Shown piece after piece: positions 7,082 through 29,697 of a DNA stretch of 30,950 bases. Origin of the DNA: a virus; IMG/VR virus record IMGVR_UViG_3300023112_000068, positions 1-30,950 of that record; one strand, given 5' to 3'. Made by a program: the position numbers and the translations under genes. The stretch's first letter is position 1, and each line of letters opens with the position of its first letter. Under the pieces are notes generated by a model, which did no database searches, was not told the DNA's origin, and worked only from the letters and a program-made list of their open reading frames with translations.

Positions 7082-7110
7082 AGTATAGCACTTCTGGAGA
7101 GCCTTGTCAA
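7082..7110 (-). promoter_or_regulatory. Sigma70-type promoter for helicase operon
   Basis: On the minus strand: -35 TTGACA (7105-7110), 17-bp spacer, extended -10 TGC-TATACT (7082-7087). The expected start of transcription is near 7075, 17 nt before the helicase GTG. The -35 overlaps the last codons of the exonuclease gene. Confidence 0.85.
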
Positions 7111-8063
7111 GAATTACTTACGATTCTTTTGAATATAGAAAATAGCGATGTCGTATTCCATTCTCCGAACCCGTCCTCGCTCATGCGCTTAATTATCTCT
7201 GTCTTATTAAATTCTGGCTTGAAGCTTTCTAGGGAATGTTTTAATTTGTTCTTTGTCTGTATCGAGATAGATGGACTATAAAGTTGCATTATTTTATAAT
7301 TCTCCTCGATCAAATCGCGAGATTGCCCAATAGATGCTATTGTTTTAAGTCCCGTATTATCATTTTCACAGAATTCCATCACATCATCAATAGTCACATC
7401 TTCCTCTTCGGCGAAAAATGGCATCTTTTTGGACACAGTGGCTAGACCTACTCCGTGTACACCTACTAAATTGTCCGACTTGTCGCCTACGATGGCCCGT
7501 GCCAGTGCGAAATTTGTAGGATGGATATTATATTCTTCAAGGATTCTGGGTTTATTCATAAAAACCTTTTGAATTGGTCTGTATAACACAGTCTCGTCGT
7601 TGCACAGCTGGAAGAAATCTTTATCGCTCGAAACGATTATCTTCTGCCAGCCGCTATATTTGCCATGCTGTGCCACATACGAAATTACATCGTCAGCTTC
7701 GATACCGTCGCTGACAAGCTGAATGACGGGAGTGAAATTTAACATTTCCATAAGGCGGAGCTGTTGCCATACCTTATTTTGCATCTCCTGATCTTCTGTC
7801 AAGACCCTCACGGAGCGATTCAGACGGATGGGCTTTCTCCCCTCTTTATAGTTTTTGTTTACAGCCTTGCGCTTTGCCGAGCCTCCAGCACCGTCCCATG
7901 CGATAATAATTTCATCTGGCTTCATCTCTCGGCAGAGTTTTTGTAAAATCTTCATGAAACCCTTATATCCACCAATGGGGTCTCCATTTGTGGATAGACT
8001 CGGATCTACTATATAAGCCCTGAAATATGCATTAAGGGCATCAATAATTACCAACCTTTTCAT
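7107..8063 (-). CDS. 5'-3' exonuclease / flap endonuclease (T4 RNase H type)
   Basis: 318 residues, ATG at 8063 with Shine-Dalgarno AGGAG. The acidic active site of the PIN/FEN family is complete: D8 (VIIDALNAY), D57 (IAWDG), E122-A-D-D125 (IEADD), D147/D149 (SSDKDF), D194/D197 (GDKSDN). The helix-hairpin-helix is GVHGVGLATV (201-210). Length is close to T4 RNase H (305) and T5 D15 (291). It removes RNA primers and 5' flaps during lagging-strand synthesis. A dedicated consensus promoter lies immediately upstream. It sits between the J-domain gene and the helicase in the replication block. Confidence 0.94.
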   Translation of the reverse strand: MKRLVIIDALNAYFRAYIVDPSLSTNGDPIGGYKGFMKILQKLCREMKPDEIIIAWDGAGGSAKRKAVNKNYKEGRKPIRLNRSVRVLTEDQEMQNKVWQQLRLMEMLNFTPVIQLVSDGIEADDVISYVAQHGKYSGWQKIIVSSDKDFFQLCNDETVLYRPIQKVFMNKPRILEEYNIHPTNFALARAIVGDKSDNLVGVHGVGLATVSKKMPFFAEEEDVTIDDVMEFCENDNTGLKTIASIGQSRDLIEENYKIMQLYSPSISIQTKNKLKHSLESFKPEFNKTEIIKRMSEDGFGEWNTTSLFSIFKRIVSNS

Positions 8064-12815: not shown

Positions 12816-13334
12816 CTAGGTTGTCGTGGTGGTCGTATCAGTAGTCGTTGTATCAGTCGCTCCGCTTGTGACTGAAACCAGCTCGATCTCAAATTGGAGA
12901 TCTTGTCCAGCCAGCGGGTGATTTAGATCAACCGTTACAGCATCGTCTTGTTGCTCCGTGATTCGGCCGTAAACAGTACGACCTTGGGGGGTACGGAGAG
13001 GGACGGGCATGCCATCAGTTAACTCAATCTCCGTTGGAAAGTTGGAACGGGGAATCACAGTTTTTGCCTCTGGATTAACCACACCGTATGCCTCGGCTGC
13101 GGGGATGGTTACCGTCTTTGTTTCTCCGGTGGTCATTCCAGTGACAGCATTATTAAACCCTGGAATCATCTGTCCTGCACCTACAGTAAAGGTGATTGGC
13201 TCCCCGCGAGTATGGGAATTGTCAAATTCGGAGCCGTCGTTTAGAGTTCCTCGATAGTGAACAGTTGCTGTACAGCCTTCTGTTGCCGTTGTTGTTGTTG
13301 TTGTTGTTGTGCCTGTTGTCGTATTCGTTGTCAT
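12816..13334 (-). CDS. SlyD-like FKBP-type prolyl isomerase with poly-threonine ends
   Basis: 172 residues. After an N-terminal threonine run (MTTNTTTGTTTTTTTT) comes a clear FKBP domain: TVHYRGTLNDGSEFDNS, GAGQMIPGFNNAVTGM and GETKTVTIPAAEAYG. A flap/IF-type insertion (about residues 88-135) and VDLNHPLAGQDLQFEIEL, the SlyD-type closing segment, follow. The C-terminus is again threonine-rich (DTTTTDTTTTTT). SlyD-type proteins isomerise X-Pro bonds and act as chaperones in the cytoplasm; the histidine-rich metal tail of SlyD is replaced here by threonine. The runs come from repeated ACN codons (simple repeat). It lies behind a terminator after the SSB gene, with only a weak Shine-Dalgarno (AGAG). 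Confidence 0.88.
   Translation of the reverse strand: MTTNTTTGTTTTTTTTATEGCTATVHYRGTLNDGSEFDNSHTRGEPITFTVGAGQMIPGFNNAVTGMTTGETKTVTIPAAEAYGVVNPEAKTVIPRSNFPTEIELTDGMPVPLRTPQGRTVYGRITEQQDDAVTVDLNHPLAGQDLQFEIELVSVTSGATDTTTTDTTTTTT
13284..13318 (-). repeat. Trinucleotide repeat encoding poly-threonine
   Basis: Mostly GTT/TGT triplets on the plus strand (ACA and ACC codons in the gene) coding for the N-terminal threonine run. A related, less regular ACN run codes for the C-terminal tail at 12819-12858. Such tracts can expand or contract by slippage without changing frame. Confidence 0.7.
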
Positions 13335-13411: not shown

Positions 13412-14182
13412 TTATTTGCCCGTTAGTTCTTTGAATGCCGCTAGGACATCGGGGGTGTCTTCGGTCGAAAGCTGATCGGTGGACTCCGTGGTGGTGTCCC
13501 CCTCCAGAGAGGAAATAAAACCATCAAGTGCAGCTTGTACCTCCTCTTCGCTCTTTACCGTAAAGAGAGTATCGAATTTTGGAATATTCGCCAATAATCG
13601 ATTGCACTCCTCATCGCCCCCTACGACATCATCGCAAAGTGGACTTGTGCGACGTCTAGGGGTCAAAGTTGTTTTAGGAAAGTTTGCCCCCGGAGGTTTT
13701 CCGTATGTCAATGTCAGGTCTGTACCCTCATCGATAGCCGTAATATCGCCATATTCCGGATTCAAAACAAGATTAAGAAGCGATGTGTATGCTTCCTTTC
13801 CATATCCCCAAATTCGAATGCCCTCGGCCTCTTCAGTTCTCACCATTACTGGTGAAAAGAATCGTTGGCGCGGTGATAAATCCTTTGCCAGCTTCATAGT
13901 ATCCTGGTCCTGTGTTTCGTTAAAGTCCTTCCAAAGCTGATCCTTAAAGTCACAGATAGGACAGTTATCTCCGTGATTCTTTTTCGGACAAAGAAGTCCA
14001 CCTCGCTGGTCTGGACCCAGATTGTAGTGGAACCAATAATCCTTAAAGGGGTCTCCGTCCTCGGTTGGTACAATGCGGATTACCTGTGTGCCGTCCTTTG
14101 GACGCCAAAATGATCCTCCTGCCTTGCCATTGTTTTTTACATTATCGAGTCGTGCTCGAATTTTCGCGATGTCTAATGCCAT
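13412..14182 (-). CDS. Single-stranded DNA-binding protein, T4 gp32-like
   Basis: 256 residues from ATG 14182, preceded by a strong purine-rich ribosome site (AGAGGAGAAGAAGGG); longer in-frame extensions upstream run into the previous gene and lack one. The N-terminus MALDIAKIRARLDNVK is basic, as in the gp32 cooperativity region. The zinc site C65-x4-H70-x3-C74-x2-C77 (CPKKNHGDNCPIC) matches the gp32 HC3-type subdomain, embedded in aromatic OB-fold segments (FKDYWFHYNLG). The C-terminal tail is acidic and threonine/serine-rich, ending in AAFKELTGK, the usual partner-binding tail. Length is below T4 gp32 (301). Two consensus promoters inside the upstream gene point at it, and a strong terminator follows, so it is probably a highly expressed monocistronic unit. 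Confidence 0.9.
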   Translation of the reverse strand: MALDIAKIRARLDNVKNNGKAGGSFWRPKDGTQVIRIVPTEDGDPFKDYWFHYNLGPDQRGGLLCPKKNHGDNCPICDFKDQLWKDFNETQDQDTMKLAKDLSPRQRFFSPVMVRTEEAEGIRIWGYGKEAYTSLLNLVLNPEYGDITAIDEGTDLTLTYGKPPGANFPKTTLTPRRRTSPLCDDVVGGDEECNRLLANIPKFDTLFTVKSEEEVQAALDGFISSLEGDTTTESTDQLSTEDTPDVLAAFKELTGK

Positions 14183-14223: not shown

Positions 14224-15093
14224 TCAGGACGACGAATTTTTCGTCCCGCTGGTTTTGTTTTGTTCTTTTGTTTGAATGTGCGGGCTTGCCTCTATCACAT
14301 AGCCCATGTCGTAATCCCAATCATTTGAATATATCACATATTCTACATTGAGACCCTCTTGTGTCTTTAATTTTATTGAATTTTTTATTTTTTGAAAAAG
14401 TTTATTATCCGACCTCAACTTGTTTTCGTTTATACTATAAATATAACATTTATGACGCGGGTTGTCAAGGGAAAAAAACATTTTTTCTTTATTTTTCTCA
14501 ATATCAAACATTCCGATTGTCACCAAACGATGAGTGTCTTTAAGTTTGGAAATTTTACCAAATGCTGGATCGGTATTGTGGAATACATTTATCATGTGCA
14601 GGGCGGATACCAGTATTTCATTGAGTTTATCGTAATATCCGATCACTGGTGCACCATCTGCAATAGAATCTAGAGACTCGTTTGAAACGATATACATCTT
14701 TTCAAATACGGCAGACCTTGAATATTCCTGCATCACACCGAAGACGGCACGATCTTGTAGAGATTGGGTAGGGTTCAGCAACTCCTCTTCTGGTTTTATA
14801 TATAAAATCGATATTGGCAGTTTCTTGATGCTTTCTAGAATTCTCAAAGAGGCACAAGAGATCTTTCCGCCGCCGCCGACGATAAACAGTGTTTTTCCAG
14901 ATGTTCCTTTAAAAAACGATTTCAATTTTGGAAACCTATATTGCTCATATTCCTCTGCTTGTTCAAACTTAGGTATATTATAGCACCTATCGCCGGAGAT
15001 GTCAACATCTATTTTAAAAATTTTATATTGTGGATGCTGTGAAAAAACATCGGCGATTTTGCAGCCAGCATTGCCAAGACCTATAATATTCAT
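14224..15093 (-). CDS. FtsZ/tubulin-like GTPase-fold protein
   Basis: 289 residues, ATG at 15093 directly after the polymerase stop, with GGAG. Elements occur in the FtsZ/tubulin order. IGLGNAGCKIAD (4-15) matches the first glycine loop (FtsZ GVGGAGxNA). TLFIVGGGGKISCAS (68-82) sits where the tubulin signature GGGTGTG lies, but is degenerate. ILYIKPEEELL...A..G matches VTKPF.FEG.... MYIVSNESLDSI matches LIVIPNDKLL, and YYDKLNEILVSALHMI the next helix. INVFHNTDPAF...LVTIGMFD resembles the T7-loop strand region. The C-terminal part (200-289) is unlike FtsZ. It could be a phage cytoskeletal filament of the PhuZ/TubZ kind, or a non-hydrolysing relative. A Rossmann enzyme is the main alternative. 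Confidence 0.6.
   Translation of the reverse strand: MNIIGLGNAGCKIADVFSQHPQYKIFKIDVDISGDRCYNIPKFEQAEEYEQYRFPKLKSFFKGTSGKTLFIVGGGGKISCASLRILESIKKLPISILYIKPEEELLNPTQSLQDRAVFGVMQEYSRSAVFEKMYIVSNESLDSIADGAPVIGYYDKLNEILVSALHMINVFHNTDPAFGKISKLKDTHRLVTIGMFDIEKNKEKMFFSLDNPRHKCYIYSINENKLRSDNKLFQKIKNSIKLKTQEGLNVEYVIYSNDWDYDMGYVIEASPHIQTKEQNKTSGTKNSSS
14440..14468 (-). promoter_or_regulatory. Sigma70-type promoter, internal, proximal to SSB gene
   Basis: Minus strand: -35 TTGACA (14463-14468), 17-bp spacer, extended -10 TGT-TATATT (14440-14445). It lies inside the FtsZ-like gene, about 250 nt before the SSB start. Confidence 0.75.
14977..15005 (-). promoter_or_regulatory. Sigma70-type promoter, internal, distal to SSB gene
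   Basis: Minus strand: perfect -35 TTGACA (15000-15005), 17-bp spacer, extended perfect -10 TGC-TATAAT (14977-14982). It lies about 90 nt into the FtsZ-like gene, past its first glycine loop, so it cannot express the full protein and most likely feeds the SSB gene. Confidence 0.8.
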
Positions 15094-16278
15094 TTAAATC
15101 TCCAATCTCTTAAGATTGCCGAAATCTTTACCGACACTAACATTAACTAAAAATTTTCCCAATTCAGTGCTGGAGAAAATATCTATTATTTCTGGCAAGA
15201 GTTCTTTGTCTTCGAGCGAAAAGTCCAATACAACAGAATCATGGATCGGGAAAGCAACATACGATTTACAACCTTTTATATAATTAGACACCTTTATCAT
15301 TTGTCTCAGAACATTTTCCGCACAGGTGGACTGAATGATGTAGTTTAAGGCTGTTCGCTCTTCCGAGGGGATGATCTTGTTCCAAAAGGTCGTCACTTGG
15401 CCCTGAGTGAAGTGCTTTTGTACCACGGATTCTCTATCATAGGCGGATTCGCACTTGTTATCGATACTCTCCGGATTATAGAGCCAAGCAAAGATTCTTT
15501 TTTTCGCCTCGGATCGAGAAAGCTTTCCGTCGAAGACATTCTTAATATTCCAATTGTGGAGGTCTTCTTGCGGTTGTGCCTTACCTTGAAGCGACAGGAG
15601 AGTTCTCAGCTCTGCTGCATTAAAGTCTAGTTCTATAAAATAGTCGTTCTTTGGCTCGATTGCACACCTAAGTTCCCTGTCGAGAGTTAAAATTGGAAAA
15701 CTATTCTTAAAAGTTGTCAACCTTCCAGTCTTGGTTCCGCGCATGTTGAAACGACAATGGCTATCCATGTTACTCAACTTGTGTATAAATTTTCTATGCT
15801 TTGCCTTATAGAGTGAGAGATTTTTTCTGTTTATATTTAATCTTTGATACTTGATTCTTTCCAGCTCTCTTGTTAATCCAAGCAAATAATCATAGTTGTC
15901 TGGTTTTTCGTGGTTCTCAAAGATGTGTCTGCAAATTAAATCCTTCACATAACATAATTCCAAAAGAAACTTTTCAGGAACTAAATCGTAAAAACAGTTC
16001 TCATTTAGCGATACACGGGCGGTAGTAAATGACTTTAAGTAAGCTTCAAACTTCTTTTTTACACCGCACCAGCGGTCTCTCAGTGGCTCAGGGCACACTT
16101 CCTCAAGAGACTTTCCGTCGCAATACAAGCTGGCATACTGAATATTGTGATTTTCTAAGAAAGAAGAGTAAGACCAAGTGTGAGATAGGTTCTCTGGGAG
16201 AGTCTCGTTGAAAGACAGTTCACCATCGAGATAAATTCCCACACACTCCTTCTTGTCATCCAAGGTTTGAAATAGCAA
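15094..16278 (-). CDS. Family A DNA polymerase, polymerase domain only
   Basis: 394 residues from TTG 16278 with GAGGAA upstream; an own promoter lies 40-70 nt before. Motif A LDFNAAELRTLL (217-228, D218), motif B R255-xxx-K259-xxx-F263-xxx-Y267 (SRSEAKKRIFAWLY) and motif C FPIHDSVVLDF (343-353, H346 D347). The RGTKTGRLTT segment (180-189) is the usual T/RTGR substrate loop. The residue equivalent to E. coli F762 is phenylalanine. Motif C has HDS in place of the common HDE. There is no 3'-5' exonuclease domain: only about 170 residues precede the palm, against over 400 in Pol I, so proofreading must come from another gene not in this window. Presumably the replicative polymerase. Confidence 0.92.
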   Translation of the reverse strand: MLFQTLDDKKECVGIYLDGELSFNETLPENLSHTWSYSSFLENHNIQYASLYCDGKSLEEVCPEPLRDRWCGVKKKFEAYLKSFTTARVSLNENCFYDLVPEKFLLELCYVKDLICRHIFENHEKPDNYDYLLGLTRELERIKYQRLNINRKNLSLYKAKHRKFIHKLSNMDSHCRFNMRGTKTGRLTTFKNSFPILTLDRELRCAIEPKNDYFIELDFNAAELRTLLSLQGKAQPQEDLHNWNIKNVFDGKLSRSEAKKRIFAWLYNPESIDNKCESAYDRESVVQKHFTQGQVTTFWNKIIPSEERTALNYIIQSTCAENVLRQMIKVSNYIKGCKSYVAFPIHDSVVLDFSLEDKELLPEIIDIFSSTELGKFLVNVSVGKDFGNLKRLEI

Positions 16279-26829: not shown

Positions 26830-29697
26830 TTAATCCTCAAAACCCGCGCCTTGATTTGTAATAACAAAGTCAAGTGCGATGTACTCGATTGCCTTAGCTG
26901 GCTTCAAGAAAATCTTGGCATATACGATGTTCTGATCAACCAAATCTGGTGTAGTCGTCGTGTTGTCCAAAATTAATTTGTAGTCGCTCAAGCCGAGTCT
27001 AGTCTGTACACTGGCCAAGAAAGGATCAGCGAGACTTTTAAATCTATTCCAAGTAACTTCCACATTCTGGTCAAAGAGAATCGAGTTAGCAAAAATGGAA
27101 ACTTGCTTTTTAACAAAAATCATCATTCTTCTTACATTGATTCGGTCAAGTGCCGAAGGTGTAGCTTGAAGTGTCTTTTGTCCGAAAATCACAATGCCCT
27201 CATTTGGGAAAGAAGCAATAGGATTGATGTTTGTGTCATACAACCTATCCCTTTCTTTCGAGGTCAATCTCTGACTGACATTCAATACTGGAATTCCAGC
27301 GGAACCTTGCGATAATCCGCCCCTATTGAATCCTGCAGGTGCAAACCAGACTTCTGATTGAGCCTCTGAGGAAGCGAATGTCCCCAATGCCACAACCGAA
27401 GGCGGAACCCACAGTCTACTGTTAGATGTCACATTGTCTTGGATCTGAACCCAAGGATAATATGTACATCCGTAAGAATTGTTTATCTGTCGTTGTTCAA
27501 GGGTGTTGACAGCACTCGATACCGACTGGGGTCGTTGGCTTGGGTCAGCATACTGTGTGCTTCCCTCTGTGAAGGGGACATAAACATCTTGAATGTCTAC
27601 AATCGCCAAGCAATCTCCCCTGTCTGCACTAACTTGCATCATGTGGTCGGTTATCGTGGTATTTGTGATACCTGGAACAGCGATAAGATTGCAATCAATC
27701 GCTTCTGGATCTGCAACCATATCGACAGATTGGCGAAGAGTATTCAGGGCATAACTATTCTGAAGATTTTTGCCATCCATGCCCGTGTTTCTAAAGGGTT
27801 CTACCTCTACTAGGTTCAGCCCGTCAAAGCCGCCGAAGAGAGGTGCGGTGAATCTAGTCCATCCGTCGTCGACCACATCTCTCCAACTTCCAGATGCCGA
27901 GTATGAATCTCCAGCAACTCTGGATTCTGATGCATAATATGTGTATGTTTTGCCAAGTGGCTTGACAATATTATCAAGGGAGAAAGCCCACTGACTCTCG
28001 ATATCGCCAGAGGCGATTCCGCCGAGGGGATATAAATAATCTCCCAAGCCAGCATCTGCTCTACTGCTCGCATAAAATGTTGTATTCTCCAAGTAGGAAG
28101 AGGCGTTCAGACCGAAATAAGCATCTGTCTGATCCGTCAAGCCGCCTGCTGAAGAAGAGATTCTCAGTTGTGTCTCCGGGAAGTTAAGATTAAGTGTGTA
28201 ATCTGCAATGGATCCCGTGTTGATAATTCCGCCTGCGCCGACTGCTGGGGTAATGCCACGAGGACCAGCCAGACCTTTATCCAAAACAGTTGTAGGGGTG
28301 AGTGCTGATGGTTCCACCAAAACATCCTTGATTCTGGAAGGTCCGTATACTCCAAAGGGCAGCAAGACTGGATCTGCGATACCGTTACGAACCGTATCGG
28401 TCACTTCCACTCTAATGTACTTCGATGCATTCTCGTATTCACCATATTCTCTCAAAACTTTATCTGTCTGGCTCCAAACTCTATATTTATCGCCAATTTT
28501 CTTAGCGATGTAATTGTCAGAAAGCGGATTCAAATTCACATTTGAAAATCTTTCAACAATCTGTGTTATTCCATCAGTATCATCAGCCTTTCTAACGACA
28601 ACGGTAAAAGATCCATAAGAATTCGTTCCGGTTGTATCTCTAGAATAGCTCAGGTCTTGGACCGACACCTTGAGATTGTCCTGAATCCACTTACCTGGTT
28701 CAGTAGCATGGATTTTGAAAAGATTTTGCATTTTCGAAGCAGACCATGAAGCATAGTCGGTTCCCACATCTTGAGAGAAGAACCACCCTGTTGCCGCTTT
28801 GGTCGCATCTTGCCTATAATCGGATTTTGTTGAATCATCGAAAGGAAGAATGAGTCCGTATGATGCGGTACTCAGCGAGCCATCGTCGAGCTTCTTCTGA
28901 ATAAACGATTCATATGTCTCTCCAAGCCAATAGAGTTCTTCCCCTCTTGAGAAAGAAGATGCTGGGATAACTGCCGTATTTGTTGACTGCGGATTCGTAT
29001 TGAATACTTTTCTGATGAATGTTCTAGATGATACATCAAAATTAAAAGTGGTCTTGTACACTTCCGCATCCGAAGCATCAATAATCATAGCCTCGAAGTC
29101 CGGACCTTTAGAGCTTCCGATGTCCGAGGATGTGTTGAATAGTGCACCGATGCCCTGTGTTGGGGCTGTAGCACCTGCCAAGGTTCCGGTCATTGCCACT
29201 GCACCGCCGGAGGCAAAATAGAAAATACCCGCAAGGAACCCTTCGTGTTGCGATACGAGGGACGAAGATGGGTTACAAAGGAAAAGTCCGTATGCTCCAC
29301 CATTCGATGCTGCGGAAGTACTGATATTTACAGTGCCCCAACCTGCGGCGCCTGCAGGATCATCTGCATCGTCGTTTTCCAATCCGGCCAATCTTAAGAC
29401 CGTAATCGCATCTGGGCTGTTTCTTAAATATGCTTGGGCAGCATATGCTGCATAAGTTGGTCCCTGAAGGTTACCATCTCTCCACACATCACCAGTCGCT
29501 TTTCCTGGGACTGGGTTGCCAAAAACATCAACAAATTCTGAAAAAGAACTAATATTGACTGGTTCCATTGCTGGACCTCTCGGCAGGCGGCCGATAACTA
29601 CTGGTCCCGCATCTCTTGCTGCGGCGGGCAACTGGGAATTGTCTATTTCTTTGACAAAGACTCCAGGGGATACAAATTTGAATTTTTTAACTGACAT
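26830..29697 (-). CDS. Tail sheath protein (gp18-like)
   Basis: 955 residues. The N-terminus FVSPGVFVKEIDNSQLP followed by GPVVIGRLPRGPA and FSEFVDVFG is the diagnostic start of contractile sheath proteins. The C-terminus has INVRRMMIFVKKQVS, FDQNVEVTWNRFKSLADPFL and DLVDQNIVYAKIFLKPAKAI followed by EYIALDFVIT, the conserved domain that joins neighbouring subunits. About 300 residues longer than T4 gp18 (659); the extra length lies in the variable, surface-exposed middle. Contraction of this sheath drives the tube through the cell envelope. ATG at 29697 preceded by TAGGAG, with a late-type element 45 nt upstream. Confidence 0.95.
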   Translation of the reverse strand: MSVKKFKFVSPGVFVKEIDNSQLPAAARDAGPVVIGRLPRGPAMEPVNISSFSEFVDVFGNPVPGKATGDVWRDGNLQGPTYAAYAAQAYLRNSPDAITVLRLAGLENDDADDPAGAAGWGTVNISTSAASNGGAYGLFLCNPSSSLVSQHEGFLAGIFYFASGGAVAMTGTLAGATAPTQGIGALFNTSSDIGSSKGPDFEAMIIDASDAEVYKTTFNFDVSSRTFIRKVFNTNPQSTNTAVIPASSFSRGEELYWLGETYESFIQKKLDDGSLSTASYGLILPFDDSTKSDYRQDATKAATGWFFSQDVGTDYASWSASKMQNLFKIHATEPGKWIQDNLKVSVQDLSYSRDTTGTNSYGSFTVVVRKADDTDGITQIVERFSNVNLNPLSDNYIAKKIGDKYRVWSQTDKVLREYGEYENASKYIRVEVTDTVRNGIADPVLLPFGVYGPSRIKDVLVEPSALTPTTVLDKGLAGPRGITPAVGAGGIINTGSIADYTLNLNFPETQLRISSSAGGLTDQTDAYFGLNASSYLENTTFYASSRADAGLGDYLYPLGGIASGDIESQWAFSLDNIVKPLGKTYTYYASESRVAGDSYSASGSWRDVVDDGWTRFTAPLFGGFDGLNLVEVEPFRNTGMDGKNLQNSYALNTLRQSVDMVADPEAIDCNLIAVPGITNTTITDHMMQVSADRGDCLAIVDIQDVYVPFTEGSTQYADPSQRPQSVSSAVNTLEQRQINNSYGCTYYPWVQIQDNVTSNSRLWVPPSVVALGTFASSEAQSEVWFAPAGFNRGGLSQGSAGIPVLNVSQRLTSKERDRLYDTNINPIASFPNEGIVIFGQKTLQATPSALDRINVRRMMIFVKKQVSIFANSILFDQNVEVTWNRFKSLADPFLASVQTRLGLSDYKLILDNTTTTPDLVDQNIVYAKIFLKPAKAIEYIALDFVITNQGAGFED

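Follow-up and report, generated by a model that had tools for sequence, protein, structure and literature searches.

The characterised phage tubulins make filaments, as in the PhuZ spindle and in TubZ partition (PMC8314001, PMC7824862). PhuZ is encoded by nucleus-forming jumbo phages and keeps a T4 motif of the GGGSGS type (L119). The contacts of FtsZ to GTP include Asn166 and Phe183 (PMC10020519). Here we describe TUB1, a protein encoded in a viral DNA window (the whole stretch analysed, 30,950 nucleotides of IMG/VR record IMGVR_UViG_3300023112_000068). TUB1 is, like PhuZ, a phage-encoded tubulin homologue, but it is without canonical T4 and T7 motifs and belongs to T4-like phages with the gp23 capsid protein.

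The TUB1 ORF occupies 14224-15093 on the minus strand (289 aa), with the ATG at 15093 and the stop at 14224-14226; the plus-strand frame of the same interval has stops throughout. An earlier note on this DNA had described a divergent FtsZ/tubulin-like protein of 289 residues next to DNA polymerase. The position is as described, the stop codon of the polymerase gene directly abutting the TUB1 start, and the structural assignment was borne out by modelling (see below). The features of the locus are listed here:

14224..15093, minus strand: TUB1, predicted tubulin/FtsZ-fold protein, 289 aa (family alignments, AF2 model, Foldseek)
15055..15084, minus strand: T1 loop, residues 4-13 (I-GLGNAGCK-I), equivalent of FtsZ GxGGGGxN (column tally, hhalign register)
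14845..14880, minus strand: T4 loop, residues 72-83 (VGGGGKISCASL), replacing the tubulin signature GGGTG[TS]G and about 2 residues shorter
14713..14730, minus strand: C-terminal end of H5, residues 122-127 (QEYSRS), candidate partner-binding patch
14680..14682, minus strand: codon of T6 Asn138, equivalent of the guanine contact N165 in E. coli FtsZ (hhalign register)
14578..14637, minus strand: helix H7, residues 153-172, with Tyr154 and Asn158 at its start and His166/Asn169 near its end (AF2 model, alignments)
14527..14580, minus strand: residues 172-189, the H7-S7 interval in the place of FtsZ T7 and H8; no NxDFxD, no helix
14284..14526, minus strand: reduced C-terminal domain, residues 190-270 (S7, S8, H10, S9, S10; without H8/H9) (DSSP against the TUB2 model)
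15094..16278, minus strand: PolA, family A DNA polymerase, 394 aa; its TAA stop directly abuts the TUB1 ATG
13412..14182, minus strand: gp32-type single-stranded DNA-binding protein; likely start ATG 14182 with GAGGAG upstream, mechanical ORF to 14320

Fold and extent of the TUB1 family

The AlphaFold2 model of TUB1, computed with a 27-sequence alignment as input, reached a mean pLDDT of 91.3 and a pTM of 0.89. It has the two-domain tubulin layout, with an N-terminal nucleotide domain, helix H7 (153-172) and a reduced C-domain (S7-S10). Foldseek comparison of the model with the PDB gave 595 matches at E ≤ 0.001, and the top 50 were all FtsZ or TubZ. The best match was FtsZ 4dxd (E 1.2e-12, TMq 0.71), and TubZ 2xka was matched at E 4.3e-12; the fit to PhuZ was weaker (E only 1e-6, TMq 0.51). 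The best viral match, in BFVD, was A0A6J5RW92 of an uncultured Caudovirales phage (E 1.6e-13, TMq 0.76), which is annotated as FtsZ and differs from TUB1 in its length of 452 aa, with 13% identity; other phage tubulins and PhuZ came next. We concluded that TUB1 has, by its predicted structure, the tubulin/FtsZ fold with both domains, the C-terminal one reduced.

The protein shares with FtsZ the two-domain fold, the T1 glycines, the T6 Asn and the H7 aromatic residue and Asn for guanine, whereas identity is 10-13% and the T3 loop GAGANP, the T7 motif NxDFxD, H8/H9 and the C-terminal tail motif are missing. Unlike FtsZ, it carries G[SAG]Gx[IV]S in T4 in place of GGGTGTG and is encoded in a phage replication operon. 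The likeness to TubZ lies in the fold (2xka, E 4e-12); TUB1 differs in having no H11/C-terminal extension and no T7, and no constant small tubR-like regulator was seen beside it, the constant neighbours being PolA and gp32. The four FtsZ-core motifs listed in the earlier note, GLGNAGCKIAD (5-15), GGGGKISCAS (73-82), IKPEEELL (99-106) and IVSNESLD (135-142), are present in that order. Since they stand on conserved family columns and, in the high-confidence model, within the secondary-structure elements where they belong, they are not a chance string.

The note had also proposed structure prediction with comparison to FtsZ, TubZ and PhuZ, which placed FtsZ and TubZ closest in the PDB, and a sensitive profile search, which assigned it to no known family. 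The single protein and 27 members gave nothing significant against Pfam, NCBIfam, PHROGs and PDB sequences; PF00091 reached 0.043 at best, in 2 of the 27 members and below cut-off, and hhalign against E. coli-like and proteobacterial FtsZ gave the right register without significance. Against TUB2, a second tubulin described below, one hhalign comparison reached E 0.0047, with unrelated pairs at 0.17-0.4. Because these profile-profile matches are weak, the homology of TUB1 to tubulins rests mainly on the fold and on the joint decay of its nucleotide-site positions.

Some members have weak Pfam matches to TrkA_N (0.007) and other Rossmann-type families, and a weak PDB profile match to alcohol dehydrogenase (E 1.3) was also obtained, as might be expected if TUB1 were an ordinary NAD(P)-binding Rossmann protein or other dinucleotide enzyme whose likeness to FtsZ is a chance GxGxxG. 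We consider this exceedingly improbable. No dehydrogenase was nearest in the structural search, and since the alignments with FtsZ and TubZ run over the whole chain, C-domain included, TUB1 is not a bare Rossmann domain; helix H7, the conserved T6 and H7 asparagines and the co-decay of T1, T2, T4, T6 and H7 positions also speak for a tubulin. A plain Rossmann fold without the tubulin C-terminal domain and T7 loop was the outcome that the earlier note had set against its own reading: the fold is a different one and the C-terminal domain is present in reduced form, whereas the catalytic T7 loop is indeed absent.

A single-protein scan of IMG/VR recovered 45 TUB1 loci; with a profile the number rose to at least 571. 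A tblastn search of 50,697 phage records with three divergent members as queries yielded no relative (a PolA query, used as positive control, did give matches), and a GTDB genome scan returned 423 pattern matches and 0 relatives. Literature searches found no description of the family. We concluded that TUB1 is an undescribed family, placed in the tubulin/FtsZ superfamily by its fold and not represented in the family libraries that we searched, and that it is a core gene in an uncultured marine clade of T4-like phages that is abundant in the ocean.

Column conservation was assessed in the 27-sequence alignment, in a column tally of 101 sequences and in 174 unique proteins. Across the 101 unique proteins, strictly or nearly strictly conserved residues are G5, G7, A9, G10, C11, Q22, Y23, K27, D29, E47 and E50 in the N-terminal part, G76, L83, Y98, P101, Q122, E123, Y124, R126, S127 and N138 in the middle, and Y153, N158, H166, M167, N169, T192, G194 and others later on. 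The dN/dS ratio between close pairs is 0.04-0.15, with the neighbours PolA and gp32 alike, and TUB1 is under strong purifying selection. Apparent in-frame stops in three relatives, considered as possible recoding, were rejected since each stop is the end of the match in the aligned translations.

Nucleotide-site elements kept and lost

Elements were assigned from their order in the model and from the hhalign register. T1 reads GLGxAGC[N/A] where FtsZ has GxGGGGxN, with G5, G7, A9 and G10 near-invariant; T2 is represented by Asp29, and the T3 GAGANP loop is missing. The T4 signature GGGTG[TS]G is replaced by GGGGKISCAS in the window protein, as the earlier note had pointed out, and by G[SAG]Gx[IV]S in the family. 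The guanine-contact positions N138 (T6) and N158 (H7) are found in 101/101 proteins of the tally, in which residue 154 is mostly Y, H or F; in the window protein Tyr154 takes the stacking position. These three residues align with FtsZ N165, F182 and N186 in the hhalign register, and the Tyr154-Asn158 spacing of +4 equals that of the FtsZ Phe and Asp/Asn. Our reading of Asn158 follows the Asp/Asn after the H7 Phe in FtsZ, which we take to be a GTP contact.

Residues 172-189, where FtsZ has T7 and H8, are poorly conserved and contain neither a catalytic acid motif nor a helix, and the N-D-F strand proposed for this part of the protein was not recovered. The T7 catalytic acids and H8 of a canonical polymerising GTPase are thus lacking. 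The TUB2 model served as a same-method control and keeps the T7 motif SFDSKDLE, followed by H8 (236-244) and H9. With the guanine-contact residues present and T7/H8 absent, TUB1 would have kept guanine recognition and lost the inter-subunit hydrolysis machinery. Since T3, T7, H8 and the full T4 signature are missing or altered, canonical filament-activated GTP hydrolysis appears unlikely, as judged from sequence and model. The earlier suggestion that GTP hydrolysis or binding may be altered fits the hydrolysis and polymer-activation side (T3, part of T4, T7 and H8 gone), but the window protein retains the residues for guanine recognition (Asn138, Tyr154, Asn158 and the T1 glycines).

The pocket has nevertheless decayed in some lineages. 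Asn138 is kept in 161/174 unique proteins and lost in 13, and the tree needs 7 independent losses. Asn158 is lost in 10/174, every time along with Asn138 and with 4 losses on the tree; co-loss was thus seen in 4/4 independent events (sign test p=0.125, too few), or 4 of the 7 N138 losses. Gly76 of T4 is replaced together with N138, mostly by charged residues, in 6/7 independent pairs (sign test p=0.031). The columns decaying most in pocket-less proteins are N138, N158, Y153, D29 and L106, followed less strongly by G10 and G5, so that positions of T1, T2, T4, T6 and H7 decay together; conservation also drops at Y259 and Y217 of the C-domain. Because most of the decaying columns are those expected of a tubulin nucleotide site, the pattern supports the residue mapping and, with it, the binding of a nucleotide by most members.

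A second set of residues behaves differently. Q122, R126, S127, E50, N169 and Y98 are unchanged in 13/13 N138-less proteins, and Q122 and R126 are invariant (174/174). Judged by topology, the nucleotide-distal end of the N-domain would carry Q122-S127 from the end of H5, Y23 from the start of S2, and H166/N169 from the end of H7.

These results bear on whether TUB1 forms filaments of the PhuZ/TubZ type that position, segregate or organise replicating phage DNA, the nucleotide sitting where subunits meet and hydrolysis being achieved by some other mechanism or not needed (a static filament). The tubulin fold with its reduced C-terminal domain, the guanine pocket kept in most members and a DNA-replication gene context that suits DNA positioning are all in keeping with such filaments. 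The T7 catalytic acid, H8 and T3 are lacking, however, T4 is shortened, the pocket has been lost 7 times with the gene retained, and the structural match to PhuZ falls short of that to FtsZ. A patch that only touched the nucleotide of a neighbouring subunit would be expected to decay along with the pocket; the patch at the opposite end does not, which makes a different partner more likely. We regard a PhuZ/TubZ-type filament as unlikely. Decay of the pocket at least 7 times, with another patch intact, suggests a role other than that of ordinary moving filaments. A hint at a PhuZ-like spindle in the earlier note was not supported, since the gene's position, its conservation and the pocket losses indicate a role tied to replication. 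Its notion of a type distinct from PhuZ in a T4-like genome stood up well: the T4-type major capsid protein gp23 is present in 10/10 long TUB1-clade records, which also argues against the chimallin setting of nucleus-forming jumbo phages.

A second tubulin in some of these phages

A subset of the TUB1 phages encode TUB2, a protein of about 345 aa (344-349 aa in the first three seen) with canonical motifs. The genes are located as follows:

L113:1036-2085, minus strand: TUB2
L312:1039-2073, minus strand: TUB2
L313:1015-2055, minus strand: TUB2
L319-L398: further TUB2 genes

TUB2 was found at at least 223 IMG/VR loci, and tblastn in the phage collection gave no match. It scores over or near the cut-off of PF00091, its PDB matches are FtsZ, CetZ and TubZ, and Foldseek with its AF2 model matched FtsZ at E 1.5e-19. 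The two proteins occur in the same phage group and are collinear from T1 to H7 in the profile comparison, but TUB2 has GVGGGGGK, GGGGGTGS, the T7 motif, H8 and H9, in all of which it differs from TUB1. Its gene lies away from TUB1 (in L313 near a gp21-like prohead protease). TUB1 is present in 7/7 TUB2 records of at least 135 kb, whereas TUB2 is absent from 6/6 TUB1 records of at least 150 kb; TUB2 is accessory in the clade, not universal. Tubulins are thus common in this T4-like group, with TUB1 at every PolA-baited locus tested and the canonical TUB2 in a subset. A tie between pocket loss and TUB2 was considered and is not supported as a rule: only 3 TUB2-positive phages are without N138 (L401, L404, L405), and most N138 losses sit in fragments where TUB2 status is not readable.

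FtsZ is often targeted by phages, and TUB1 could mimic FtsZ so as to cap or poison filaments of host FtsZ or of TUB2, its nucleotide face binding the T7 face of the target and its own lack of T7 stopping growth. A missing T7 next to a mostly intact nucleotide face is the expected look of a capping subunit. The fixed place in a replication operon and the slow evolution are unlike those of host-takeover genes, however, pocket-less lineages persist, and across a broad clade no member tested lacks TUB1. The absence of TUB2 from the long TUB1 records means that TUB2 is not the general target. We judge a capping role to be improbable.

The replication-gene neighbourhood and a possible role

The order PolA-TUB1-gp32 was found in 150/151 loci, with a PolA-TUB1 gap of at most 20 bp in 103/156. 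In a PolA-baited scan, 77/78 newly fetched loci carried TUB1, and the 78th held its first 51 aa at a contig end. Elsewhere the window has a T4-like gene content rich in replication functions, encoding RecA, DnaB, a 5'-3' exonuclease, a class II RNR and an FKBP together with two DNA methyltransferases and T4 baseplate and tail sheath proteins. An isolated relative, Flavobacterium phage immuto (NC_055915.1:1-9483, L233), has the operon order PolA-SSB-RecA-exonuclease-DnaB-RNR without TUB1; hence some replisomes of this kind do without TUB1, which is specific to its clade as far as tested. Immuto gp002 and gp003, which occupy the same operon place, were considered as split TUB1 homologues and rejected by eye. 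The gp45 sliding-clamp C-domain was found in 0/12 long clade records, in a scan of fragmentary records with a single model (L280, L263, L248, L101, L116, L086, L349, L354, L331, L376, L326, L360; T4 and P-SSM2 controls positive).

The best explanation we can offer, to which we give about even credence, is that TUB1 is a guanine-nucleotide-holding, non-hydrolysing scaffold or accessory subunit of tubulin fold that acts in the phage replication machinery through its conserved patch, a function suggested by gene order and conservation. TUB1 would be made together with PolA and gp32 and act in DNA replication. In most phages a guanine nucleotide would serve as a structural or regulatory ligand, with no hydrolysis through filament contacts, and the conserved N-domain end that lies across from the nucleotide site would bind a partner, which could be PolA, gp32 or another neighbour in the replisome. 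If TUB1 works by such partner binding, some lineages could have dispensed with the nucleotide. More tentatively, and with some doubt, these phages, in which no T4-type clamp was detected, may have taken over a tubulin homologue as a core replisome component that forms no filaments, for instance as an accessory factor of their exonuclease-less PolA; the nucleotide pocket would then have ceased to be an engine and become a ligand site that can be spared. A replisome subunit, if true, would be a job that we know for no other tubulin homologue. A slowly evolving replication-operon protein that is universal in its phage group, has no catalytic half and has repeatedly lost its nucleotide site uncouples the tubulin fold from polymerisation driven by GTP, and its pocket losses are a natural experiment on the purpose of that fold.

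Several further observations were made on the neighbouring genes. The polymerase motifs of PolA look intact (DFNAAELR, RxxxKxxxFxxxY, HDS), and at 394 aa it is too short to include a 3'-5' exonuclease domain; a 5'-3' exonuclease is encoded separately at 7107-8063. A MazG-like ORF stands between PolA and TUB1 at L314:1179-1490 (record G087), and up to 2.5 kb is inserted there in other relatives. The FKBP-type prolyl isomerase gene (12816-13334) adjoins gp32 and has the same place in L002, L018, L078, L085, L112 and L116. The tail sheath protein (26830-29697) is 955 aa long, and known sheath domains match its C-terminal third only (about residues 665-947).
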